Positions 1,424 to 40,991 of a stretch of DNA of 48,148 bases are shown in pieces. This DNA comes from a virus. Where the stretch lies: the IMG/VR virus record IMGVR_UViG_3300049448_000568, positions 1 to 48,148 of that record. One strand, written 5' to 3'. Position 1 is the stretch's first letter, and the number at the start of each line of letters is the position of its first letter. The notes under the pieces are model-generated. The model saw only the letters and a list, made by a program, of their open reading frames with translations. It did no database searches and was not told the DNA's origin. The position numbers and the translations under genes are program-made.

Positions 1424-2098
1424 TTAGCGAGGTTCCTCGGGAAAAAGGCGCTTGAACACCCCGTCGGGGTAATCGATCAGATGCTGCGTGAGCTCCCAGG
1501 TGTGCAGCCATCCCCCATCTATCAGCGGAAGGTGGGAGAGGAAATCTAGCCTGTTGGGGAGACCGTCATCAGTACGGAACGAGAAACCGTCTCTCGTCAC
1601 CATGGCTTCCAGCTTCAACACATCGATGTCGTAGAAGGCGATCTTGTGCTCCGCGCAAAAGCGCCGCTTCTGCGGAGTTGGGGCCGTTGTCGCAGTCAGC
1701 TCGAACACCGCGCTGATGCCCAGGTTGCTCTCGCACGCCACGTCGAAAATGAACATGGGCTTGAGATTACTGTCGAACGCTGCTTCTGCCGTTGGGTAAT
1801 GCGGAAAACCATTCTCGTGCAACCAGTTACCCGGGCCGAACTTCACCCCGAGCTGCGACCAGGAGAACAGCCGCCCCTTTGCTTTATGCGCGACCGGATA
1901 CACGTACTCAACCACGGTCGCCCCGTTGGTGTGGTCACTGCGGATTGGCCCGTACCGAGTCCACACCCTCTTGACGACGCTCTGCACCACCAGCTTCGCG
2001 TCGAAGTGTGCTTCCGACTCCCGATTTCGGAACGCCGTCTTTCTGCGGTACTCGGACGCGGACATGCCGTAATCAGAGTAGTCGGAGTAGTCGTTCAT
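1424..2098 (-). CDS. hypothetical protein, possible PD-(D/E)XK-like nuclease, 224 aa
   Basis: The N-terminus is Tyr/Asp-rich (MNDYSDYSDYGMSASEYRRK). The C-terminal half contains FDVACES, then AVFELTATTAPTPQKRRFCA and AFYDIDV. This order of a buried acidic strand, a second strand ending in Glu, a Lys-rich helix and a final strand recalls competence CoiA-like PD-(D/E)XK proteins, but the match is by eye and weak. The ATG overlaps the polymerase stop as ATGA and AGGAGAT precedes it. Coupling to the polymerase fits a DNA-processing role. Confidence 0.55.
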   Translation of the reverse strand: MNDYSDYSDYGMSASEYRRKTAFRNRESEAHFDAKLVVQSVVKRVWTRYGPIRSDHTNGATVVEYVYPVAHKAKGRLFSWSQLGVKFGPGNWLHENGFPHYPTAEAAFDSNLKPMFIFDVACESNLGISAVFELTATTAPTPQKRRFCAEHKIAFYDIDVLKLEAMVTRDGFSFRTDDGLPNRLDFLSHLPLIDGGWLHTWELTQHLIDYPDGVFKRLFPEEPR

Positions 2099-5000
2099 TT
2101 GCCGTATCTCCTGGACATGATTTCTGGTTTGCTGAAAACAGGCATACCTTGCGCCCACGCCGGCGCGGTCCGCATCTCGCGTTCCAGCCAGTCGCGCCAC
2201 GCCGGGCCGTGCTGCTCGGGAACCTCGAGGACGATTTCGTCGTGCACATGGAACGCGATCGACGCTCCCGCGCGGTCGGCGCGCAGCATGACGTCGGCGA
2301 GCAGGTCGCGACAGAAGCCCTGCACCGCGTTCTCGTAGATCTTCCCACTGTAGGTCCGGCGCTGCAGGACCTTGCCGTTGACCGCGTTGTCGTACACGAT
2401 CACCTGCCGCCGATCGTCGAAGGGGTCGCGCTCCATCCGCGCGTTCCAGTAGGTGATCACGCGCCCGCTGGGCAGACGCATCTCCACGCAGTCGGGCTTC
2501 CTCTCGAAGCTCAGCTTGCCCGCCGGGAGAACTGTGGTGCGGTTGCTCTGCAGCAGCGCCGTGAACTGGTTCTGGCACTCGTGCCACTTTTTCACGACTT
2601 TGTCGTATTTCATCCGGTATCCGTTGATGATCGCCTGCGGGTCGATCCCCAGCCCCTTCAGGTCGACACCGAGCGGACCCGCCATTCGGATCACCGCGTT
2701 CGGGCCGCCGCCGAAACCTGCGCTCAGAATTCCAATCTTACCGCCGCCACGTTCGCGCTTCGTGACCGTCAGCGGGTTCTTGCCGAAGATGGTGCCGGCC
2801 AGAATCTGGTAGGTGTCGGGAACGTTCGGATCCTTGCCGTCCGGGTGAACTTCGTCGGCCGCGTCCTTGCGCCGGTAGTCCACCAGCCCTTCTTCGTCGT
2901 CGGCCAGCCAGAGCACGCCGCGCGCTTCGACCGACGCGAAGTCACCGACCACGAACACGTTGCCCGGCGCCGGCACGATGATGCCGCGGATCAGGCTGCC
3001 GAGCAGCTCGTACGGCGGTTGGCCCTTGCATAGCTCGTTGAACTTCTCACGATCCTGATTCTCCACCGCCTGCGCGGCGGCCGCCAAGTCGAACTCTTCG
3101 TTCGGCCTCTTCATGTTCTGAATTTGGATCTGGTATCCACTCCACCTGCCGGTGGACGCGCCGTGATAGCGCAGCTGCCCCTTGGCGCGCCCGTCGGCTG
3201 ACACGCACTTCAGGGCCTTGTCGACCTTGGCCAGCGCGGCGCGGCTGACCGCCAGCCGGCACCGAATCACCTCCACCACCTCGTGCGCGATGATCCCGGT
3301 CTGGTCCGCGGCGCTCTTGGACTCCTCCTGCTCCTCGTACAAGTTGACCAGCTTCTGCAACGTCTCCAGCTTCATGTCGGGCAGCTGGAGCTGGCTCGGC
3401 AGGTTGAGGTTCAGCTGCTCGCGCAGGAAGTCCCCGCGGGTCAGGTCCGCGCGGGTGACGGACCCGTCGGTGAGCTGCTCGACGTAGGCCCCAGCCACCA
3501 CCTTGAACTCTTCGTCGAAGTCGCGCAGCGTGGTGGCGAACTGCTTGTCGATGCAGATGCCCCAGTAGTTGATCTTGTGGTGGAGATCGCAGACGTCCTG
3601 CTCCCACTCGGGCGTGGCGTTGAGTCCGAACTTCTGCGCGATCCCGTAGCTGATGTCGGTGTCCCGGAAATTGTAGTTCAAGATGTTCTGGATAACGTAG
3701 TCGGTCAGCGGCGGCAGGTCGCCGGTGTCCGGATTCGGGCCCCAGATCCGACTGATGAACCGCTTGCCCTCTTCATCCTTACCCATGCCGAACAGGGTGA
3801 GCCCCGCTTCGTCGGCGCCGGCGGCCAGGCCTTTCGACAGGGTGCGGTCCATCGTATCGCGCCATGCCAGGGGCTCGGGGAGCTTGAGCGTGCGGGTCCA
3901 GATCGCGCGCTCGAACCCGACGTTGTGGGCCACGATCACGCAGCCCGCCGGGTCGGTCACCATGTCGCGCAGGAAATCGAGCCCGTGCTCGTACTCGACG
4001 CCGGTCGGCATCGTCAGCTTGTACTCGAGCTCGGTCCAGTAGATCCGCCGGCCGTCGACGATGATCGCCGCGCACATGACCTTGGTCGACGGGTGCTCGG
4101 CGTATACGTAGCCGCCGTGCCACCGCAGGTTGCAGGCCGACTGGGTCTCGAAGTCCAGGTAGGCAATGACCGGGTCGGTGAACTCGGTGGGGTCCAGCAC
4201 GAAAGGCTCCTCGTCGCCGAGCTCGGGCAGGGGTTGGAGCGCTGCCGCCGCGGCGGGCGCGACTGTGGGGGCCTCTGCCGGCGCAGCGCGTCGAACCGGC
4301 GGCCACGTCGCAAACAACTCTGCGTTGACGCTCCGGGCTCGAGATCGCGCGCGACCCGCCTCGACCAGCCGGACGTACGAACGCGCGCCCCACGACCGGA
4401 TGTCGAACTCGACCGCCTTCACCCCGTCCCTGAAAGCGTACATCTTGGGCAAGTGCAGTTGGAAGGGGTCCAGCACATGCTTCAGGTTCTCGGCTGCGTG
4501 CAGCCGGTCCTCGTCGCGCTGGCCGCTGCTGCCTTTGCCGAGCGACTCCACCAAGAGTTGGCAGGTCGCGCCGACGGTCCCGGCCTTGTTCCAGTCGATG
4601 AACCGGCTGCCGCGGCCCACGCGCTTCTGAGTCGTCCCGTCCTCCTCGGGGCTCGCTGCGATCCGCTCGATCAGTTCGACCACCAGATCCTTGACCGCGT
4701 CGTGAGTGTCGGTGCCGCCGGCTTCGGCCTCCAACAAGGGGATGTCCAGCATCGCCATCTTGACCGCGAACGACGTCTTGCTGCCGGGCGGGAAATACTC
4801 GTCGATGACCCACGAGTGTAGCGCATGGGCCGCCTTGGTGAGCTCCGGTGTCGCCATCCACCACTTCTCGACCATGTGGCCCATCTTCTCCCAGCTGGTA
4901 GTCAGCCGGCTGTCGAGGCGCAGCAGGTGGACGCGGCGTCCGAACTGCTGGTCCTGGGAGAAGAACGCCGGGATGCGCCAATCGGTGAAGATCACCGCGT

Positions 5001-6987
5001 TGTTGAACGGCGGGCTCTCGGCCCCCTTGTAATTCTTGTAGTGGGTGAACGCGGCCCGGTTCAGCCGGGTGGTGAATGCGTGCAAGTGCCGGTAGTCGGC
5101 CGGGTTCTTGGCGAAGTCGTCGAACACCAGCAGGCGCGACAGGCGCATCGCGTCGCCGACCGACTGGTTGAGCCGCTCCTCCTGGATGCCCGACAAGTCC
5201 TGGAACAGTTCCCCATACATCTCGGTGACGATCCGAATGGTGGTGGTCTTGGCCGCCTCGGTTGGGCCCGTGGCCCACAGCATCGGCGGCGGTCCTTCGC
5301 CCGACTCCGCGCAGCCCATGGCGATGATCAAGGCGCGGATGTATTGAAGATTGGCCCCCGGAAAGTAGGCAGTGATCGCGGCCTCGGCTTCGGCCAAAGG
5401 CATGCGGTTTTTCAGCGCCACGTAGCTGACCCGGGCCTGGGTCGTCCGTACCTTCGGCTTGCACCGGATGACGCTACCGCTGGACGCGTCCCGGTTGTGC
5501 ACCAGGAAGATCGGCTCGAACGAGTAGGCCTGGATCGGGATCCAACCGGGCAGCCGCCCGTTGTTGGTGTGTGCCGTGATGTAGGCCTGTCGCGGCTTCG
5601 ACACGTCCTCCTCTTTGTCGTAGCGCTGGCACGACGGCAGGATCGACACGTCGGCGCCGGTCAGCCGCTGGGCTTCGAGCAGCGTGTCCTTGTGGAGCCA
5701 GTGGCCGTCGCCGCGGACAAAAAAGAACGGGTGGAACGCGGCCTCGATTCGCTGGATGCTGTCCTTCTTGACTTTGAGTGCTTCTTTGTGGGTCGCCTTC
5801 AACTGCGCCGAGTACAGCGGATGCCGCAACGACTCGGGCAGGTTGGGGAACAGCTCGGTGAACAGGTAGTCCACATGCTCGACGTGGACGATGTTCTCGA
5901 ACGCGTAGCGGATCGGCGCCAGCGCGTACTGGTTCTCGAGTGCCATGCCGCGCGAGCGCCGAATGTAGCCCCAGGTCATGTTGCCGCGCCCGATGCGCCC
6001 GTGGCAGGAGTGGCAGTACAAGCCGTGCTTGTCGACATAGATCGGCGTGGGGCTGGTTGACTTGTGCTCCGGGTCGATCAGGCAGTACGAGTGGTCGAGC
6101 CGCTCGCCGCCCTTGAGCCCCATCAGGTCCATGATCTCGGCGACCTCTTCCTCGGTCGCTTCGGCTTTCGAGAAACGCTCCAGCACTTTCAGGTGGTCCG
6201 TAGGGATGGAGTCCATCACCCGGCCGCAGCGTTGGCCTTTCTGCGGGGACCCCGGGTGGCGCGTCTTGTTGATCACCTCCACGGTGCCGCGAGCTCGGAG
6301 CACCGGGATCAAGGTCAACAGCTGAGCTGCCGCCGCCGCGGCGAGTTCTTGCGCCGTGTACAGGTCGTTCGGGGTAGCGGTGTAGATCGCTTTCAGGCCG
6401 CCGCCTTGCGTGCGCCACCAGCACAGCGGCGCCGGTGCGAGCTCGCGGCCAAGCTCGTCGAGGCCTTCGTTGTCCAACCGCTCGGGCGCCTCGTGGTCGT
6501 GGAAGTCCACGTCCAGGCACGCCAGGTATTTCAGGGTCTCGGCGTCCCACTCCAGCAGCGTGTCCGGGGCCTCGATCTGCTTGTGCAGGATCGCCAAGAT
6601 CCCGACCGCGCTGGAGATCTCTCCATAGACCAGTGCTTCTTTTTTCGGCTGCTGGATCGTCCGCTGGGTGAGCTGGTACGGCGGGGTCGGCTTCCAGGTT
6701 TTCTCTTCGGGCTTGCCCGCCTCTGCTTTTTCCTTTTCCTTGATCTCGGCCAGCCAGCCCTTGTACAAGCGGGTCAGCTGCAGGAACTCGCCGGCGCTCA
6801 GGTTGATCTCGCGCTCCAACTGTCGCGTCGCGGCGCCGCCGCCCATGTTGAACGCGGCAAACAGCCGCTCTTGGCCTAAACCGTCCTGGTACTCGATCCG
6901 GACGAAGTCCGGGAATCCTTTTTCTGCGGGGGTGAGATGCAGCGTCCGACCTCCGACGAGGTCGACGATCAGCGGCTCGATTGGCAT
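2095..6987 (-). CDS. fused primase-helicase-family A DNA polymerase, 1630 aa
   Basis: The chain carries several replication motifs in order. D159xD161 (CLDVDFHD), then WWRTQGGGLKAIY (about 190-203) and RHPGSPQKGQ (about 241-250), resembles the archaeo-eukaryotic primase fold. C302, H308, C325 and C328 form a CHC2-like zinc site. GPTEAAKT (574-581) and LLVFDD (D623, D624) are Walker A and B of an SF3/VirE-like helicase. LDFET (D945, E947), HNVGFE (E1026) and FRDTD form a DEDD 3'-5' exonuclease. DFASVEAR (D1349), K1417 and HVHDE (H1582-E1584) are polymerase motifs A, B and C. Phage family A polymerases are usually 600-800 residues with helicase and primase as separate proteins, so this fusion is unusual. 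Start ATG has GGGAAGG upstream. Polymerase and exonuclease assignments are firm, helicase good, primase tentative. Confidence 0.9.
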   Translation of the reverse strand: MPIEPLIVDLVGGRTLHLTPAEKGFPDFVRIEYQDGLGQERLFAAFNMGGGAATRQLEREINLSAGEFLQLTRLYKGWLAEIKEKEKAEAGKPEEKTWKPTPPYQLTQRTIQQPKKEALVYGEISSAVGILAILHKQIEAPDTLLEWDAETLKYLACLDVDFHDHEAPERLDNEGLDELGRELAPAPLCWWRTQGGGLKAIYTATPNDLYTAQELAAAAAAQLLTLIPVLRARGTVEVINKTRHPGSPQKGQRCGRVMDSIPTDHLKVLERFSKAEATEEEVAEIMDLMGLKGGERLDHSYCLIDPEHKSTSPTPIYVDKHGLYCHSCHGRIGRGNMTWGYIRRSRGMALENQYALAPIRYAFENIVHVEHVDYLFTELFPNLPESLRHPLYSAQLKATHKEALKVKKDSIQRIEAAFHPFFFVRGDGHWLHKDTLLEAQRLTGADVSILPSCQRYDKEEDVSKPRQAYITAHTNNGRLPGWIPIQAYSFEPIFLVHNRDASSGSVIRCKPKVRTTQARVSYVALKNRMPLAEAEAAITAYFPGANLQYIRALIIAMGCAESGEGPPPMLWATGPTEAAKTTTIRIVTEMYGELFQDLSGIQEERLNQSVGDAMRLSRLLVFDDFAKNPADYRHLHAFTTRLNRAAFTHYKNYKGAESPPFNNAVIFTDWRIPAFFSQDQQFGRRVHLLRLDSRLTTSWEKMGHMVEKWWMATPELTKAAHALHSWVIDEYFPPGSKTSFAVKMAMLDIPLLEAEAGGTDTHDAVKDLVVELIERIAASPEEDGTTQKRVGRGSRFIDWNKAGTVGATCQLLVESLGKGSSGQRDEDRLHAAENLKHVLDPFQLHLPKMYAFRDGVKAVEFDIRSWGARSYVRLVEAGRARSRARSVNAELFATWPPVRRAAPAEAPTVAPAAAAALQPLPELGDEEPFVLDPTEFTDPVIAYLDFETQSACNLRWHGGYVYAEHPSTKVMCAAIIVDGRRIYWTELEYKLTMPTGVEYEHGLDFLRDMVTDPAGCVIVAHNVGFERAIWTRTLKLPEPLAWRDTMDRTLSKGLAAGADEAGLTLFGMGKDEEGKRFISRIWGPNPDTGDLPPLTDYVIQNILNYNFRDTDISYGIAQKFGLNATPEWEQDVCDLHHKINYWGICIDKQFATTLRDFDEEFKVVAGAYVEQLTDGSVTRADLTRGDFLREQLNLNLPSQLQLPDMKLETLQKLVNLYEEQEESKSAADQTGIIAHEVVEVIRCRLAVSRAALAKVDKALKCVSADGRAKGQLRYHGASTGRWSGYQIQIQNMKRPNEEFDLAAAAQAVENQDREKFNELCKGQPPYELLGSLIRGIIVPAPGNVFVVGDFASVEARGVLWLADDEEGLVDYRRKDAADEVHPDGKDPNVPDTYQILAGTIFGKNPLTVTKRERGGGKIGILSAGFGGGPNAVIRMAGPLGVDLKGLGIDPQAIINGYRMKYDKVVKKWHECQNQFTALLQSNRTTVLPAGKLSFERKPDCVEMRLPSGRVITYWNARMERDPFDDRRQVIVYDNAVNGKVLQRRTYSGKIYENAVQGFCRDLLADVMLRADRAGASIAFHVHDEIVLEVPEQHGPAWRDWLEREMRTAPAWAQGMPVFSKPEIMSRRYGK

Positions 6988-15561: not shown

Positions 15562-16550
15562 TCAGGACACGAGCTGGAGGAGGTTGGCGAGCTTCTCGCG
15601 GTAGTGCATCGCGATCTGCCCGTCGGGGATGCTGCCATCCGGCGCCGGGAAATTCTTCACCGCCTCGACCAGCACCCGGTGCTTCTCCTTGAGCCCGTTC
15701 GGGTCGTAGAGCTCGTAGCCGAGCCCGTCCGGGCAGGGCCGCTGCTTGAGGTGTCCCAGGTACGCAGGCCAGTACGGCAGGGCGCACTCGTAGAGCCGGT
15801 TGGCCAGGATCCGGATCTCGGCGTCGGCCGCTGCGCTCGCCCGCTGCTTGAGGATCCCCTTGAACGCCCGGACGTTGACGGTCCAGACCATCTCGGTCTG
15901 CAGGGCATTGCCGAGGTAGCCGCGGGCCGCGCCGCGGGCTTGCTTGCGCGCGGTGAACTTGTCGACGCCCTTGGCGACGAGCCAGGGCTCGAGGGTGTCG
16001 CGGACCATAGCGTAGGTCTGGTTGTCAGAACCGTGGGAGAGGTCGATCCGGAGTATGTCGCGCTCGCTCTCGCCTTTGTCGGGCTGCGCTCTGCGACCCA
16101 CGCCTCGACCAGCGGGTGATGGATGTACGGGCTCTCGTTCTCGTCGACGTACCGGGTGCTGCGCTGGCTGATCGCGACACCGACGCGATGGCGCACCAGC
16201 TCGTGGGTCAGGCCGCGACTTACGGCGGAAATGAAGAATGTCAACGTCGCGCATTCTTGCACCGACCCGTGGTCCACCTCTTCGATGTGCTTGTGGTACT
16301 CGCTCGACGGCCGGCCCACGCCGTAGGAGTCGTAGCAGTTCCGGCCGGCGCACTCGATCAGGCGGTCAGCGTCGGCGCCCTGGTCCTGGCCCTTCTGCTC
16401 GACGATGCTGCGGGCCCGGCTGTAGATCGCCTGCTGGGTCGGCTGCGCGACGGTGCCCTTGAAGTCCTTCGCCGCTTTCTCCAGCGGCAGCAGGTCGTCG
16501 GGAACCCCGATGAACTTGGTGTGGGCGATGACTTTGACGATGCAGGGCAT
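15562..16550 (-). pseudogene. thyX: flavin-dependent thymidylate synthase ThyX, split by a frameshift
   Basis: The N-terminal frame runs from 16550 and contains ELVRHRVGVAISQRSTRY (R120-Y134), a variant of the ThyX RHRxxS signature that binds dUMP and FAD. Near 16075-16110 the reading must move back by one base, after which the other frame gives DLSHGSDNQTYAMV, EMVWTVNVRAFKGILKQR and AEIRILANRLYECALPYWPA, the ThyX C-terminal half. Downstream of the shift the first frame becomes Ser/Thr/Pro-rich and unnatural. One added base at CCC (16081-16083) or AAA (16075-16077) would join the halves. This may be a sequencing error, a real null mutation or recoding. ThyX makes dTMP from dUMP. Confidence 0.8.
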
Positions 16551-27091: not shown

Positions 27092-27390
27092 CCCGCCGCC
27101 CACCCAAGAAATTCGTGTTCACCCAAGGCAAGGACAAGCCCATGACCGAGAAGCCCATCACCATCGCCGGCAGCGGCGACTTCGAGCTGTGGACGGAGAA
27201 GGCCCTGGCGCAGCGGCGGGCGGTAGAGACCGCGCGGGAGCAATACCGTCAGGCAGCGGCGAAAACGCCCAGAGAGTCGCAGGAGTTGCTGGCGCGGGCG
27301 ATCCGTGCCGAAGCCGAGGCCCTCCGGATCGAGGCCGCCCTGGCGGCGTACACCAAACAGCGGCAGGCGGGAGAAAATTACAAAGGTTGA
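27088..27390 (+). CDS. hypothetical helical protein, 100 aa
   Basis: Basic N-terminus (MTRRPPKKFVFTQGKDKPMT) followed by a long helix (AREQYRQAAAKTPRESQELL, then ARAIRAEAEALRIEAAL) likely to be a coiled coil. A second possible start is the Met at residue 19, but the ATGA overlap favours the first. Unknown function. Confidence 0.55.
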   Translation: MTRRPPKKFVFTQGKDKPMTEKPITIAGSGDFELWTEKALAQRRAVETAREQYRQAAAKTPRESQELLARAIRAEAEALRIEAALAAYTKQRQAGENYKG

Positions 27391-27415
27391 TGCTTACAGG
27401 ACTTACGATTGGTCA

Positions 27416-27444
27416 TTGACTTATCTCCATAGACCCTCCATAGT
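27416..27444 (+). promoter_or_regulatory. family promoter TTGACT-N17-CATAGT with leader
   Basis: Tandem CTCCATAG present; AGGACTTACG is eight bases upstream of the -35 as at 25831. Leader CCTGGAAAGGG at 27462-27472. It drives the UvrD-like helicase and the following genes. Confidence 0.8.
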
Positions 27445-27478
27445 AGTGTCATCACCGCTAGCCTGGAAAGGGCAAACC

Positions 27479-29041
27479 ATGATCAAGCTCGCCACCATCA
27501 CCGAGACCCCCGCCGCCGCTCCGGCCCGCGTGTGGAGCCCTTACCAGGAGGCCATTTTCCGGGCCTTCACCGAGGGCAGCGGCAACATCACGGTCGAAGC
27601 AGTCGCCGGCGGGGCCAAGACCAGCTCGCTGCTGGAGGCTCTGAAGCGCTGGCAGGCCGTCCCGGCGAACCGCGGCAAGCGCGCCATGTTCTGCGCGTTC
27701 AACAAGTCGATCGCTGACGAGCTGAGCCGCAAGGTCCCGGCTGGCGTTGAGGCCCGCACCTTGCATTCCCTCGCGTTCAGCGCGGTGGCGCGCCGGTTCA
27801 AGGGCATCAAGGTCGACGACTACAAGCTGCGCGACACGGCGCACATGGTGGCGGTCGCCGCTCTCGGCCAGCAGGACGCGGAGCGGGTCAACACCGCCGT
27901 GGCCGACATGACCAAGGTCTACGGGCTGCTGCGCGGCACGATGACCAACCTGACCGACTCGGATGCGGTGGCCGAGACGGTCGCGGCCTACGGCACCGGT
28001 CTGGACGCCCCGACCGATAGCCTGCCCCTGCTCAACGAGCTGGACCAGGCGATGAAGAGCGACACCGGTCGCTGCACGTTCACCGAGATGCTGACCTTCG
28101 CCATCGACTTCAGCATTCCGCTCCCGCGCTACGATTTGCTCTGCATCGACGAGAGCCAGGATCTCAACCGCCTGCAGATCGAATTGCTGAAGCGCGCCCT
28201 GGCGCCCGGCGGCAGGCTCGTCGCCGTAGGCGACTCGAGACAGAGTTTGTACCTATTTCAAGGGTCAGACGCCCGCGCGATGGAGCGGATCCGCGAGGAG
28301 TTCGACGTGTCGCAGGGCAACCAGTTGCCGCTCAGCGTGACCTACCGTTGCCCGCGCGCGGTGGTGGCGTTGGCGCAGACCTGGGTGCCGCACATCCAGG
28401 CCGCGGACGGCGCGATCGAGGGGGAAGTGATCCAGCGGACCGGCAAGCAGTTCGCCGAGACCCTGAAAGGCCTGGAGCCTGAGAGCATGATCATTTGCCG
28501 GGTCAACGCTCCGCTGGTGGGCGTGGCGCTGCGCCTGATCGCCATGGGCAAGAAGGCCTGCGTCCGCGGTCGGGACATCGGCAAGAACGTGTCGAAGCTG
28601 GTGGCCAAGCTGTCCAAGCGGATGGACGATCGGGACGTGGTGGCGTTCGTCGAGCGGGTCACGGCTTACGGCGACACCGAGTCGGCCAAGCTGCTGAAGG
28701 CCCGGAAGGACAGCCAGGCCCAGCAGGTGCAGGACCTGTGCGAGACTCTGCTGGCGCTCTTGGAGGGGATCGACACGATCAGCGCCCTGCAGCGCCGGAT
28801 CGACGCGCTGTTCTCGGACGAGCGGGTCGGGATCACCTGTTCGTCGGTGCACAAGGCAAAGGGCACAGAAGCGGCCGTCGTCGTGTGGTTGGGCCCCGAG
28901 AAAAACGACCAGATGGAAGAGCGGGCCCGCAGCGAGAGCGCACGGATACAGGAATCGAATAATCGCTACGTCGCGGTCTCGAGGGCGATGAGGACCCTGA
29001 TCATCCAACCGCTGCCCCCGAAGAAAGGTGAGGACGAATGA
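27479..29041 (+). CDS. UvrD/PcrA-like superfamily 1 helicase, 520 aa
   Basis: All SF1A motifs are in order: WSPYQEAI (Q23), Walker A AVAGGAKTS (41-49), TLHSLAFSA (motif Ia-like), CIDESQDL (Walker B), VAVGDSRQSLYLFQGSD (III), LSVTYRCPRAV (IV), SSVHKAKGTEA (V) and RYVAVSRAM (VI). Length is shorter than UvrD (about 720), so accessory domains are reduced. The Walker A has Ala in place of the Gly before Lys. Such enzymes unwind DNA 3' to 5' in repair, recombination or rolling-circle replication. Its stop overlaps the next gene, a likely endonuclease. Confidence 0.9.
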   Translation: MIKLATITETPAAAPARVWSPYQEAIFRAFTEGSGNITVEAVAGGAKTSSLLEALKRWQAVPANRGKRAMFCAFNKSIADELSRKVPAGVEARTLHSLAFSAVARRFKGIKVDDYKLRDTAHMVAVAALGQQDAERVNTAVADMTKVYGLLRGTMTNLTDSDAVAETVAAYGTGLDAPTDSLPLLNELDQAMKSDTGRCTFTEMLTFAIDFSIPLPRYDLLCIDESQDLNRLQIELLKRALAPGGRLVAVGDSRQSLYLFQGSDARAMERIREEFDVSQGNQLPLSVTYRCPRAVVALAQTWVPHIQAADGAIEGEVIQRTGKQFAETLKGLEPESMIICRVNAPLVGVALRLIAMGKKACVRGRDIGKNVSKLVAKLSKRMDDRDVVAFVERVTAYGDTESAKLLKARKDSQAQQVQDLCETLLALLEGIDTISALQRRIDALFSDERVGITCSSVHKAKGTEAAVVVWLGPEKNDQMEERARSESARIQESNNRYVAVSRAMRTLIIQPLPPKKGEDE

Positions 29042-34964: not shown

Positions 34965-36035
34965 ATGGTGTGGAAACGCAACGCCCCCGCCGCGGCATCA
35001 GCCGCCGCCCCGTCCACCGGCGCACCGCCGCCCCCGACCGCTCCGCCGGCTCCGGCTGCCACCGCGCCCGCGGCCCTGCCGCCCGTCGCCACCCCACCGC
35101 CCACCGCCCCCGCCGCGGCAGCTCCACCGGCGGCCGCCGCACCGCGGCGCAGTCGTCGCACCGCGGCCCCTGACGCGACTGCGCCGGCAGCCGCGACCGC
35201 CTCGGTGCTCGCCCCGCCGCCGGCATCCGTCGCCGTCCCGGCCCTGCCCGGCTTCCTGGCGCTCCTGGCCCCGAAGAACCCGCAGGCCAAGTCGGCCCTG
35301 GCTATCCTGGTCGACGGCCGGACGTCCGCCGGCGAGCCGAACATCTTCCCGACCCTCTACATGCAGGGCGGCGACACCGGCGGCTCGATGCTGGCCCACG
35401 ACATGAACGTCGAAGGCGCCAATGAGGACCTGCCGGTCGGCAAGGAGCCGGTGCTCTGCATCCTGCTCGGCGTCCGGTTCGAGATCCTGCTGTGGCCGAA
35501 GGCCTACCAGCGCGGGGTCAAGATGGTGCCCAGCAGCAAGGCCGTCCTGGCCTACGACGAAGCCGAGGCGGTCGACGCTGCCCAGATGGCGGCCCAGCGC
35601 TACGCCTTCCGCCAGCGCGCGACCCAGGACCAGTACGACGCCGTCGGTCACCCGACCCTGGCGCTCGAGATGCTGGTGTACGACCCGCAGGCCGGGGTGT
35701 ACGCGATCCAGACCCCGTCGAGCTACGACAGCGTGTTCAACACCGGCAAGGAGCTGCTGACGGCCTTCCCGGAAGTCCGACCGACCCCGGTGATGATCCA
35801 GCCGATCACCTACATGACCAAGGGCTCGAAGGGCAACGCCCCGTGGGCGGAGCACTACTACAAGGTCGCCCAGGCGTCCAACGCCGCGGGCATGGAGGAG
35901 ATCAAGGCCGAGTTCAACAAGTTCCTGGCGCAGAGCGGCAGCGACCCCGAGCTCAACGCGGCCATCGCGGCGTGGTCCAAGCACACGCTCACCGCCGACC
36001 AGCTCGCCAAGCTCAAGCAGATCGCGACCACCTGA
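34965..36035 (+). CDS. Pro/Ala-rich N-terminus protein of unknown function, 356 aa
   Basis: The first 80 residues are a low-complexity Ala/Pro/Thr-rich tail. The conserved-looking part starts at LPGFLALLAPKNPQAKSALA, continues with ILVDGRTS, PTLYMQGGDTGGSMLAHD and VLCILLGVRFEILLWPKAYQ, and ends in a helical region (LNAAIAAWSKHTLTADQLAK). Neighbours are a Cys-rich protein and a Cas4-like nuclease, so a single-stranded DNA-binding or recombination role is conceivable, but nothing in the sequence proves it. AGGAG precedes the ATG and a terminator follows the stop. Confidence 0.7.
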   Translation: MVWKRNAPAAASAAAPSTGAPPPPTAPPAPAATAPAALPPVATPPPTAPAAAAPPAAAAPRRSRRTAAPDATAPAAATASVLAPPPASVAVPALPGFLALLAPKNPQAKSALAILVDGRTSAGEPNIFPTLYMQGGDTGGSMLAHDMNVEGANEDLPVGKEPVLCILLGVRFEILLWPKAYQRGVKMVPSSKAVLAYDEAEAVDAAQMAAQRYAFRQRATQDQYDAVGHPTLALEMLVYDPQAGVYAIQTPSSYDSVFNTGKELLTAFPEVRPTPVMIQPITYMTKGSKGNAPWAEHYYKVAQASNAAGMEEIKAEFNKFLAQSGSDPELNAAIAAWSKHTLTADQLAKLKQIATT

Positions 36036-36069: not shown

Positions 36070-36100
36070 GCCACCCCTTCGCAAGGAGGGGTGGCTTTTT
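36070..36100 (+). terminator. intrinsic terminator
   Basis: GCCACCCCT (36070-36078) pairs perfectly with AGGGGTGGC (36087-36095) over an eight-base loop, followed by TTTTT. It ends the transcript of the 356-residue gene, and readthrough would supply the Cas4-like operon. It also argues that the next gene starts at 36115 and not at the ATG at 36061 inside the hairpin leader. Confidence 0.85.
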
Positions 36101-36114
36101 GCGCAGAGGACCGC

Positions 36115-36309
36115 ATGGCCGACAAAGAACTCTCCGACGAAGATCTCGCCAAGGCGAAGGCCGACAACCTGCGCGAATTCCCGCACCACATCGTGGATGG
36201 CGACCCGACCAAGCAGGTCTACACCTGCGAGACGTGCGACGCGCGTCGGATCTGCCCGTTCAGCATGGACCCGTACAACACCGACTGCGAATGCTTGGCG
36301 AGCAAGTGA
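36115..36309 (+). CDS. small Cys-rich protein, 64 aa
   Basis: C38, C41, C47, C58 and C60 (TCETC, ICPF, CECLASK) suggest a metal site. The N-terminal half is acidic and helical (KELSDEDLAKAKADNLREFP). AGAGGA precedes the ATG. It is coupled to the Cas4-like nuclease by GTGA and may be a partner of that enzyme. Confidence 0.6.
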   Translation: MADKELSDEDLAKAKADNLREFPHHIVDGDPTKQVYTCETCDARRICPFSMDPYNTDCECLASK

Positions 36310-37307
36310 GCACCGCGGCGAAGAAGCCCTGGAAACCCCGCGCCTCCGCGCTCGGCTTCTACGCCAACTGCCTGTGGCGCGCGGCCCAGGACCGGGCGGT
36401 CTACGAAGGCGAGCTGCCGGAGCCGGCACCGCAGGCCGAGACCTCCGCGGCGTCGCTCGGCACCTGCATCCACTTCACCCTGCAGGACGGGATCCGGTGC
36501 ACGTTTCCGCGCAAGACGCTGCAGGTGAACCCGCAGCAGTTCGGCGCCGACCTGGACCAAGCGGATGCGCTGGGCCAGCCCATTACGCCAGAAGAGCTAT
36601 CACCAGACGAGCAGCAGCTGCTGTCGCTCGCCGACGAGCACTTCAACGGTGACCTATCGGAGGCTCACGCAGCCCTCGCCGCCGGCGACCCCCGCTGCTA
36701 TCAACCGACCGCAGCTGAGTGGGAAGACGCCGCCAAGCTCTGGGGCGGCAACGTCGACACGGCGCGCGAGCAAGTCCGGTCCGCCGCCACCCTCGGCGCC
36801 GCGACGGTGCCGCCGCTGCCGTCCGGCGAGCGCTGGTGCGCCGAGGACGAGTTCGAGAACGACTACGTCAGCGGCCACACCGACTTCCTGATGGCCAACC
36901 GCAAGGTCCTCGGCGACCTGAAGACTACCGCTAAGCCTCCGCAAGGCGGCTGGCTCAAGCCGGCGCACCTGCTGCAGATGACGGCCTACCAGCGGCTCAC
37001 CGGTGCCGAGCGCGCCTGGGTGCTGTACCTCGACTCGATGAAGGGCCGGTGGACCAACATGGTGTGGATCGACTTCACGACCGACGCCATGAAGTTCTAC
37101 GCCGACCAAGTCGAAGCCTTCTGCCGGTTCCTGATGTCGGACCAGCTGTTCGACGTCGCCTACCCGAACCTCGGGGACCACTGCGTCTACTCCTGGTGCC
37201 GGTACAAGGACGAGTGCTACTCCAAGATCATGCCCCGACCAGGATCTCTTTACAATCTCTCCATAGCCCGTAAAGCTGTAGGACCGATCCAACTGTCCCC
37301 CCTCTAG
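36306..37307 (+). CDS. Cas4/RecB-like PD-(D/E)XK nuclease with Fe-S cysteines, 333 aa
   Basis: GHTDFLM (D193) and LGDLKT (D204, K206) are the PD-(D/E)XK core, and an upstream LGTCIHF may supply the conserved His. Cysteines at 22 and then 293, 298 and 304 (CVYSWCRYKDEC) have the spacing of Cas4/AddB-type [4Fe-4S] clusters. Such nucleases resect DNA ends in recombination. The GTG start overlaps the previous stop. The last 30 residues after the cluster are not conserved-looking and overlap TTTACA plus a CTCCATAG element, possibly a promoter for the next gene. Confidence 0.85.
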   Translation: MSTAAKKPWKPRASALGFYANCLWRAAQDRAVYEGELPEPAPQAETSAASLGTCIHFTLQDGIRCTFPRKTLQVNPQQFGADLDQADALGQPITPEELSPDEQQLLSLADEHFNGDLSEAHAALAAGDPRCYQPTAAEWEDAAKLWGGNVDTAREQVRSAATLGAATVPPLPSGERWCAEDEFENDYVSGHTDFLMANRKVLGDLKTTAKPPQGGWLKPAHLLQMTAYQRLTGAERAWVLYLDSMKGRWTNMVWIDFTTDAMKFYADQVEAFCRFLMSDQLFDVAYPNLGDHCVYSWCRYKDECYSKIMPRPGSLYNLSIARKAVGPIQLSPL

Positions 37308-39447: not shown

Positions 39448-40038
39448 ATGGCGCGCATCATCGACCCGACCCAGCGCGTCCAGCCAGAGCGCACCCTCAA
39501 GTACTGGCTCGAGTCGTTTGGCTGCGTCCAGGAGTGCGCCGCGGACGCGTCCGACAACTCCGAGATCAAGCGCAGCGTCGACGACAATATCAAGCTGCTG
39601 CGATCCCGGGTGAAGGAGAAGGCCGACCCGCAGGCCCCGCAGCTGCTGGAGCAGCAGCTCCTGATCCGGGCCCAGATGTGGGTGCGCCGGCCGGAGATGC
39701 ACAACGAGATGATGAAGCTCTGGCGCCAGGCCGCGCAGGAGATCAAGATCTTCGGCTGGGACCTCGGCGAGCCGGTGCACTACGAGGAGGTCTCGAAGGG
39801 CGGCAAGCTCCGGTTCTGGCAGGGCGACAAGGACAAGCCGCCGACCGATCGCAAGTACCAGATGGACCGGCTCACCGCGGTGATGGCGATCAAGTTCCTG
39901 AAGTTCGTGGCGGCCGAGAGCCAGACCAACGACCCGGTCGAGTACACCAAGCAGACCCTGCTGAAGCAGGGGATCAACGCCGACAACTTCCACCTCTACG
40001 CGGACCGGCTCGCGTTCCCGAACCCGTGGACCTCCTGA
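39448..40038 (+). CDS. hypothetical protein, 196 aa
   Basis: Mostly helical with charged stretches (LRSRVKEKADPQAPQLLEQQ, MHNEMMKLWRQAAQEIKIFG). The segment KGGKLRFWQGDKDKPPTDRK is basic. It has the feel of a phage DNA- or protein-binding factor but matches no family I know. GGAG is upstream, and its end overlaps the serine recombinase start by 13 bases. Confidence 0.6.
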   Translation: MARIIDPTQRVQPERTLKYWLESFGCVQECAADASDNSEIKRSVDDNIKLLRSRVKEKADPQAPQLLEQQLLIRAQMWVRRPEMHNEMMKLWRQAAQEIKIFGWDLGEPVHYEEVSKGGKLRFWQGDKDKPPTDRKYQMDRLTAVMAIKFLKFVAAESQTNDPVEYTKQTLLKQGINADNFHLYADRLAFPNPWTS

Positions 40039-40991
40039 CCCCGATCACCACCGAAGACGAGCTCTACCGGCGGATCCAAGCAGCGATCAAGCCGGCGATC
40101 TGGGGCTACGTCCGGGTGTCGTCCGACAAGCAAGAGGACGGCCAGTCACCGGAGGTCCAGTGCGACGAGATCCGGGCCTACTGCGCCGACCGGTTTCCCG
40201 GCGAGCCGGTGATCCTGGTGCAGGAGGCCGCCAGCGCGGCCCTGCCGATGTTCACGGTCACGCTGCCGGGCATGAAGTCGACCGGGCCGTCGACGGTGGC
40301 GGAGGCCCCACGGCCGCTGTTCAGCATGCTGCTGGTCGGGCTGAGCGACCGGCCGAAGTCGAAGCTGGTGGCCTGGAAGTTCGACCGGCTCGCGCGGGTG
40401 GCGTCCGAGCAGGAGATGTTCCTGTCGTTGTTCCGGCGCTACGAGATCGAATTCCACCTGGCGTACGCCGGCGAGCGGCACTTGGTCGAAGGCGGGGCCA
40501 GCGCCGACCAGGACCCGGTGCGCCACCTGATGCGCCAGATCCTGGCGTGCTTCGCCGAGTACGAGCGCCGGATGATCCAGCTCCGGATGAGCATGGGAAC
40601 CCGCAAGAAGAAATCGAAGGGTGGATGGATCGGCGGGTCGATCCCCTACGGGTACGCGGTGCGCGCCGGCGAGCTGGTCGTGGTGCCCGAAAAAGCCCCG
40701 GTCGTGGTGGCGGTTTTCCGGTACCGACAGGTGTACCGGTACACCTACCGGCAGATCTGCGAGTTGCTGGCGGCCCAGTTCGGCGACGAGACGTGGTACC
40801 CCATGCGCATCATGCGGATGCTGGACAACCGGGAGCTGTACGCCGGCAAGCTGTACTCGTCCCTGCGCCCCGACCTCAAGATCCTGCCCGACACCTGGGA
40901 AGCCGCGGAGTCGATCATCGAAGCCGCATCGCGCTACCCGAAAACCCCGAACGAAGAGGCACCATCGTATGGCCACACCGCAGAACAATGA
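40026..40991 (+). CDS. serine recombinase, 321 aa
   Basis: WGYVRVSSDKQ carries the nucleophile Ser (S32), KFDRLARV and EYERRMIQLRMSMG complete the resolvase catalytic domain, and GGWIGGSIPYGYAV begins the recombinase domain. Large serine integrases are usually 450-600 residues with a zinc ribbon and coiled coil; this protein ends after the recombinase domain, so it is either a short form or truncated. A 30-residue insertion-like region (TVTLPGMKSTGPSTVAEAPR) lies in the catalytic domain. GTG start without a clear ribosome site. Confidence 0.85.
   Translation: MDLLTPITTEDELYRRIQAAIKPAIWGYVRVSSDKQEDGQSPEVQCDEIRAYCADRFPGEPVILVQEAASAALPMFTVTLPGMKSTGPSTVAEAPRPLFSMLLVGLSDRPKSKLVAWKFDRLARVASEQEMFLSLFRRYEIEFHLAYAGERHLVEGGASADQDPVRHLMRQILACFAEYERRMIQLRMSMGTRKKKSKGGWIGGSIPYGYAVRAGELVVVPEKAPVVVAVFRYRQVYRYTYRQICELLAAQFGDETWYPMRIMRMLDNRELYAGKLYSSLRPDLKILPDTWEAAESIIEAASRYPKTPNEEAPSYGHTAEQ

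Follow-up and report, generated by a model that had tools for sequence, protein, structure and literature searches.

Several replicases encoded as one chain have been described. The Plasmodium protein Prex combines a primase, a helicase, an exonuclease and a family A DNA polymerase (PolA) in one open reading frame (ORF), with a T7 gp4/Twinkle-type primase and helicase in place of an archaeo-eukaryotic primase (AEP) and a superfamily 3 (SF3) helicase. GP55 of Lactococcus phage 1706 is one chain of 1,317 amino acids (aa) that unwinds, primes, proofreads and copies DNA (Zhang et al., NAR 2025; PMC12205980). Its domains influence each other, and the primase and the polymerase are able to work in trans, perhaps as parts of a dimer (PMC12205980). 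OS3173 Pol of the Thermocrinis Octopus Spring virus (genus Pyrovirus) is a phage-type polyprotein of 1,606 aa with primase/helicase-like and PolA parts (PMC7689252). Here we describe a 1,630-codon ORF from the IMG/VR virus record IMGVR_UViG_3300049448_000568; positions 1 to 48,148 of this record, the whole stretch analyzed, are called the window below. The ORF quite probably encodes a viral replicase that joins an AEP primase with a zinc region, an SF3/D5-type helicase, an Ala/Pro-rich linker and a proofreading PolA in one chain.

The sequence-only reading of the window had held that such fusions normally stop at primase and helicase, which implied novelty. Since GP55, Pyrovirus OS3173 and Prex are known, the word "unprecedented" is unsupported. 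The set of functions in one chain is already known, and it is the AEP-zinc-SF3-exonuclease-PolA variant that is new: neither this combination nor this order was found in the literature searched, with most subscription literature lying outside the search.

GP55 resembles the window protein in having an SF3-type helicase, an AEP and a proofreading polymerase, and the AEP motifs I and II and Walker A of the two proteins align in register. It differs in its family B polymerase (PolB) and in its domain order, helicase-AEP-alpha-helical domain-PolB, against AEP-zinc-helicase-exonuclease-PolA in the longer window protein. A BLAST comparison of the window protein with GP55 gave no significant similarity. 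A scan for GP55 relatives returned phage 1706 itself only, so a GP55 family profile could not be built. The window protein thus lies outside the GP55-type replicases, for which PolB is required, though by analogy it may work like GP55.

OS3173 Pol shares with the window protein an N-terminal P-loop region with primase and/or helicase motifs and a C-terminal exonuclease-PolA (PMC7689252). Its N-terminus is described there as DUF927/COG5519 with no AEP reported, which sets it apart by description; its relatives are fused in some cases and separate genes in others, and what the other domains do biochemically is left open there (PMC7689252). Prex is unlike the window protein in being eukaryotic and in its reported proteolytic processing. 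NrS-1 PrimPol, pRN1 ORF904 and the Sputnik TV-Pol/D5 helicase (PMC2579912) unite priming and helicase activity on one chain and serve replication of the whole element, but that chain lacks a separate proofreading polymerase of family A. The order of PrimQH-like AEPs (AEP, zinc-binding domain, ATPase, winged helix; PMC5862659) agrees with that of the window protein, where the winged helix is possible and was modeled at low confidence (Table 1).

The window is a linear, metagenome-derived record. Among its frames the 1,630-codon ORF is the longest by far and has the strongest codon signal, and GGGAAGGT, which resembles a ribosome-binding site, lies upstream of its ATG. The single open frame proposed earlier was found on the minus strand. 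A reading of the same interval on the plus strand was rejected, as that frame is interrupted by stops. Three other IMG/VR contigs carry full-length relatives: L002 (80% identity, 109.5-kb contig, found by the IMG/VR scan), L008 (57%, 15.7-kb contig) and L089 (54%, 96.8-kb contig), the latter two found by a scan with alignments. All four genes are single frames of 1,625-1,654 codons with 0 stops. This settles, without long reads, the continuity between helicase and polymerase parts that had been questioned.

For the window/L002 pair, synonymous divergence (dS) is 0.65-1.04 and nonsynonymous divergence (dN) is 0.07-0.16 across every domain. With a dN/dS of about 0.1-0.25, purifying selection acts on each of the domains. 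The linker, in contrast, drifts, with a dN of 0.46 and 49% identity to L002 against 76-87% in the folded parts. This pattern indicates a selected gene and not a chance frame. The ORF is one gene, all parts of which are under selection and joined through a loose tether.

The assignment of the C-terminal 690 residues to a proofreading exonuclease and a family A polymerase, both claimed earlier from motifs, is certain at the family level. Residues 942-1630 match phrog_17, PF00476 (46 bits, cut-off 34.3) and 1,566 phage records. The DEDD class is defined by Exo I DxE, Exo II Nx3D and Exo III Yx3D, and we assigned the protein to it by LDFET at 944-948 (D945xE947), NxxxE at 1022-1026 (NVGFE) and YNFRD at 1105-1109 (Y1105..D1109). 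Motif II ends in Glu, not Asp, as it also does in the stand-alone relatives L004 and L006. Family A is defined by polymerase motifs A, B and C together with palm/fingers similarity; the protein was counted in it, and its motifs are D1349 (A), R1413/K1417 (B) and H1582-D1583-E1584 (C). The exonuclease and polymerase motifs are conserved in all four proteins, except that L008 has PHN for AHN and IDFET for LDFET. The best solved-structure relative of the polymerase profile is the apicoplast Prex polymerase. Leu1421 occupies the position of residue 762 of E. coli Pol I, judging by the R-x3-K-x3-762 spacing in our own alignment. Leu762 polymerases have been described as slower and more accurate and as occurring mainly in temperate phages (PMC6302109).

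The helicase claimed earlier, placed here at residues 521-720, is supported by motifs and by a profile alignment. The motifs follow in the expected order: Walker A GPTEAAKTTT (574-583), Walker B LLVFDD (619-624), sensor NNAVIFTDW (662-670) and an Arg finger (684-685) within FGRR (682-685). This set is well conserved in all four proteins. We compared a profile of residues 410-915 with 369 sequences, namely GP55, 60 shuffled versions of it and 308 ORFs from related loci. GP55 ranked first of the 369 with a score of 33.6 (next 27.4; pair E-value 0.0033), and the alignment placed Walker A onto Walker A. The GP55 helicase itself matches DUF5906. Primase-helicase proteins as a class outscored the other ORFs (Mann-Whitney p 3.5e-9, the members being mutually related). 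The region thus has what is expected of an SF3/D5-type protein, namely the ordered motifs and a profile resembling that of an established SF3 helicase.

For the AEP-like primase and the CHC2-like zinc finger, the earlier claims stand at the level of motifs; neither was backed by a family model, nor the primase by a confident fold match. The AEP motifs of residues 146-275 are conserved in all four proteins, save for the last residue of motif II. All four fused proteins carry the pattern hhDhD, 20-50 residues, [ST]..GG.[HK]..Y, as do GP55 and 6 of the 8 Prim-Pol proteins in clusters 4 and 9; it occurs in 0 of 278 other ORFs and in 9 of 20,000 shuffles of the window protein. The protein thus has an AEP motif I (DxD) and a motif II of the sxGG.H type at the right spacing, although three of the four have Lys in the His position; the distance from the second Asp to the His/Lys is 38 residues, against 36 in GP55. 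Unprompted, hhalign aligned motifs I and II onto those of GP55. The zinc ligands C302, H308, C325 and C328 are invariant in the four proteins, the zinc pattern occurs in 1 of the 278 control ORFs, and residues 281-330 around it were modeled by AlphaFold2 with a predicted local distance difference test score (pLDDT) of about 76-87.

Table 1. Features of the replicase ORF in the window
Feature	Residues	Position	Strand	Basis or details
Whole replicase ORF	1-1630	2095..6987	minus	1,630 aa; ATG at 6987, stop at 2095, no internal stop
N-terminal domain (four strands, then helices)	1-95	6703..6987	minus	AlphaFold2 pLDDT about 80-88
Putative AEP-like primase core	146-275	6163..6552	minus	motifs; in-register alignment with GP55 AEP
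AEP motif I	D159xD161	6496-6522	minus	
AEP motif II, RTQGGGLK	192-199	6382-6414	minus	
AEP motif III candidate, TVEV..RHPG		6250-6285	minus	
CHC2-like zinc-binding motif	297-345	5953..6099	minus	C302-x5-H308-x16-C325xxC328
Putative SF3/D5-type helicase	521-720	4828..5427	minus	motifs and profile alignment
Post-helicase region, possible winged helix	780-897	4297..4650	minus	predicted helix-helix-strand-strand, pLDDT about 50-60
Ala/Pro-rich linker	898-940	4168..4296	minus	least conserved part; length varies among relatives
Possible internal start	GTG930	4198..4218	minus	GAGGAG six bases before; in frame; linker/exonuclease junction
DEDD-type 3'-5' exonuclease	941-1125	3613..4167	minus	phrog_17 match from residue 942; motifs LDFET, AHNxxFE, YNFRD
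Family A DNA polymerase	1126-1630	2098..3612	minus	PF00476 E 4.5e-12; phrog_17 E 1.5e-63

From these domains we infer how the chain would work, including each activity, ring formation and coupling. The SF3 part would assemble as a ring or another oligomer on the fork and unwind DNA, the AEP-zinc part would lay primers on the strand so exposed, and the exonuclease-PolA at the end of the tether would extend them. Helicase, primase and polymerase would then require no separate recruitment. The model is based on the analogy to GP55, which by itself carries out unwinding, priming, proofreading and copying. A ring would bring one polymerase per subunit, which is more than a fork needs, and starting translation internally at GTG930 could be one solution.

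Two products might therefore be made from the gene, the full-length replicase and an exonuclease-PolA started internally, by a logic like that of T7 gp4A/4B. In the window gene and in L002, L008 and L089, a purine-rich site and an in-frame GTG lie immediately ahead of the exonuclease, and by its anti-Shine-Dalgarno energy this GTG ranks 4th of 74, 6th of 72, 8th of 90 and 3rd of 75 in-frame starts. The free product, of about 700 aa, would match the stand-alone relatives in size and would solve the polymerase surplus on a ring of full-length chains. The combined signal is borderline (p about 0.05 by a rough Fisher combination, after correction for the candidate codons per junction), the window and L002 are not independent, and acidic Glu-Glu codons yield GAGGAG on their own. 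We therefore regard the second product as an unlikely addition to the one-chain replicase, with which it would be compatible.

The linker invites another suggestion, namely that a protease cuts it and leaves the primase-helicase and the exonuclease-PolA as two proteins. Such processing is reported for Prex, and both Prex and OS3173 are called polyproteins in the Pyrovirus paper (PMC7689252). Of the whole chain, the linker varies most and is conserved least, but a comparison of the four linkers shows no conserved cleavage motif, and the nearest functional analogue, GP55, acts as an intact chain (PMC12205980). Cleavage seems doubtful to us.

A number of points count against the one-chain replicase, beginning with its N-terminal part. 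Residues 1-930 matched no Pfam, PHROG or PDB model and had no relatives among phages, plasmids and GTDB genomes. Pfam searches of all four N-terminal halves at E up to 10, limited by the HMMER filters, also found nothing, DUF927 included. With no curated model for this region, the primase-helicase case is built on motifs and the profile alignment. The AEP pattern was devised after the sequences had been seen, and it is absent from all 22 Prim-Pol/D5 proteins of cluster 3. By total hhalign score the AEP region does not rise above shuffles (GP55 at rank 9, the best shuffle at rank 3). In the helicase, the last Gly of Walker A is replaced by Ala in all four proteins. The structure prediction suggested earlier was run with AlphaFold2 on residues 1-430 and 410-915, using the four sequences. 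Residues 1-90 and about 280-340 gave usable models, while the AEP core and the helicase region reached a pLDDT of only about 20-50, so that neither the AEP fold nor the AAA+ fold was confirmed. Foldseek and VIA-align searches with these models found no AEP or helicase; the 151-236 matches were generic and of low confidence, and carry no weight either way. Finally, searches of the four records turned up neither a DnaB helicase nor a DnaG-type zinc domain, a result consistent with the fused SF3 part as the replicative helicase; these records may be incomplete, and a separate primase or ring helicase may lie elsewhere.

Motif II also carries an unusual residue. Its last position, usually His in AEPs, is Lys in the window protein (Lys199), L002 and L089, and His in L008. 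Together with the missing fold-level confirmation, this substitution would fit a reading of the N-terminal 930 residues as a replication-initiation or recombination module for origin binding or unwinding, with an AEP that had lost priming and priming left to the host. Nevertheless, in a half that diverges down to 50% identity, none of the four proteins has a change at either motif I aspartate, at the glycines of motif II or at the ligands for zinc, and L008 has kept the His. Loss of priming is thus rather improbable. That an assembly or sequencing artefact fused two genes can be practically dismissed: the window is a metagenome record without read data, but three further contigs, each with its own sample number and 54-80% identical, contain the same junction free of stops.

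The domain at residues 1-95 has Pur-alpha and polo-box as its nearest solved folds, tied at Z 5.3-5.5 (VIA-align), which is below the trust level of the tool. A PUR/PC4-like fold that binds single-stranded DNA (ssDNA) is a weak lead from this model. It would be part of a bolder scheme that we consider very unlikely, in which a complete PolA replisome on one chain, separate in origin from GP55 and Prex, includes an ssDNA-binding domain and an internal start for a free exonuclease-polymerase made from the same mRNA. If it were true, one gene would provide, in fixed proportions, a primase, a helicase, an ssDNA-binding function and additional polymerase.

The relatives bear on the origin of the fusion. 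Among the best 80 PolA loci kept from a scan that was not exhaustive (it missed L089), 78 polymerases are stand-alone, in frames of 607-792 codons. The fused polymerases form one clade (Shimodaira-Hasegawa-like approximate likelihood ratio test 100), so one fusion event suffices, with the caution that the branch is long. Stand-alone relatives often lie beside an AEP/PriCT/D5/DUF5906 gene, i.e., the same functions are encoded by separate genes. Sinorhizobium phage phiM5 and Caudoviricetes sp. MW202496 are of this type: a stand-alone phrog_17 PolA, about 30% identical, neighbors a Prim-Pol/PriCT-2/D5_N/DUF5906 gene, so that the same set of functions lies in one early region but in two genes. A separate primase-helicase gene (Prim-Pol, PriCT-2, D5_N, DUF5906) was found in 28 related loci, downstream of polA in 18 and on the opposite strand in 10; in none of the 28 was it upstream of polA on the same strand. 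The fused order, with the primase-helicase in front, is thus not the one expected from a lost stop codon. A simple stop-loss fusion of neighbors was accordingly rejected as the whole story, the separate genes having another order or strand in every related locus checked.

The longest contigs of this virus lineage are about 97-110 kb. We take the lineage to be double-stranded DNA phages because it is in IMG/VR and its enzymes match phage families. In two long IMG/VR contigs (G001 and G002; L092-L102; 97-110 kb) no terminase match to phrog_2 or PF03237 was found, and most of the long ORFs tried had no PHROG or Pfam match. The window shares with them an SF1-type helicase, a Cas4-like nuclease and several unknown genes. 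The SF1-type DNA helicase (phrog_1967; window 27305-29041, plus strand) is 61-65% identical in both long contigs. A 356-aa protein of no known family (34965-36035, plus strand; 46-68% identical in both) adjoins the Cas4-like nuclease (36099-37307). The window also has a dNMP kinase match and a thymidylate synthase match over part of an ORF only (15657-16550, minus strand). A match to serine recombinase/invertase-like integrases (phrog_95, phrog_125; 39534-40991, plus strand) would fit a temperate lifestyle. Both long contigs encode SNF2-type helicases (L098:17766-19556, L095:17340-19301); such helicases are common near Leu762-type phage PolA (PMC6302109).

The one-chain replicase described here may offer a single-enzyme tool for isothermal DNA amplification. 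Its four divergent natural versions can serve to study how covalently tied priming, unwinding and copying are coupled, and since there are relatives with separate genes, tied and untied versions are directly comparable. The finding suggests that replicases of the all-in-one type have arisen on more than one occasion, with differing polymerase families and domain orders, which would turn GP55 from a curiosity into part of a pattern.

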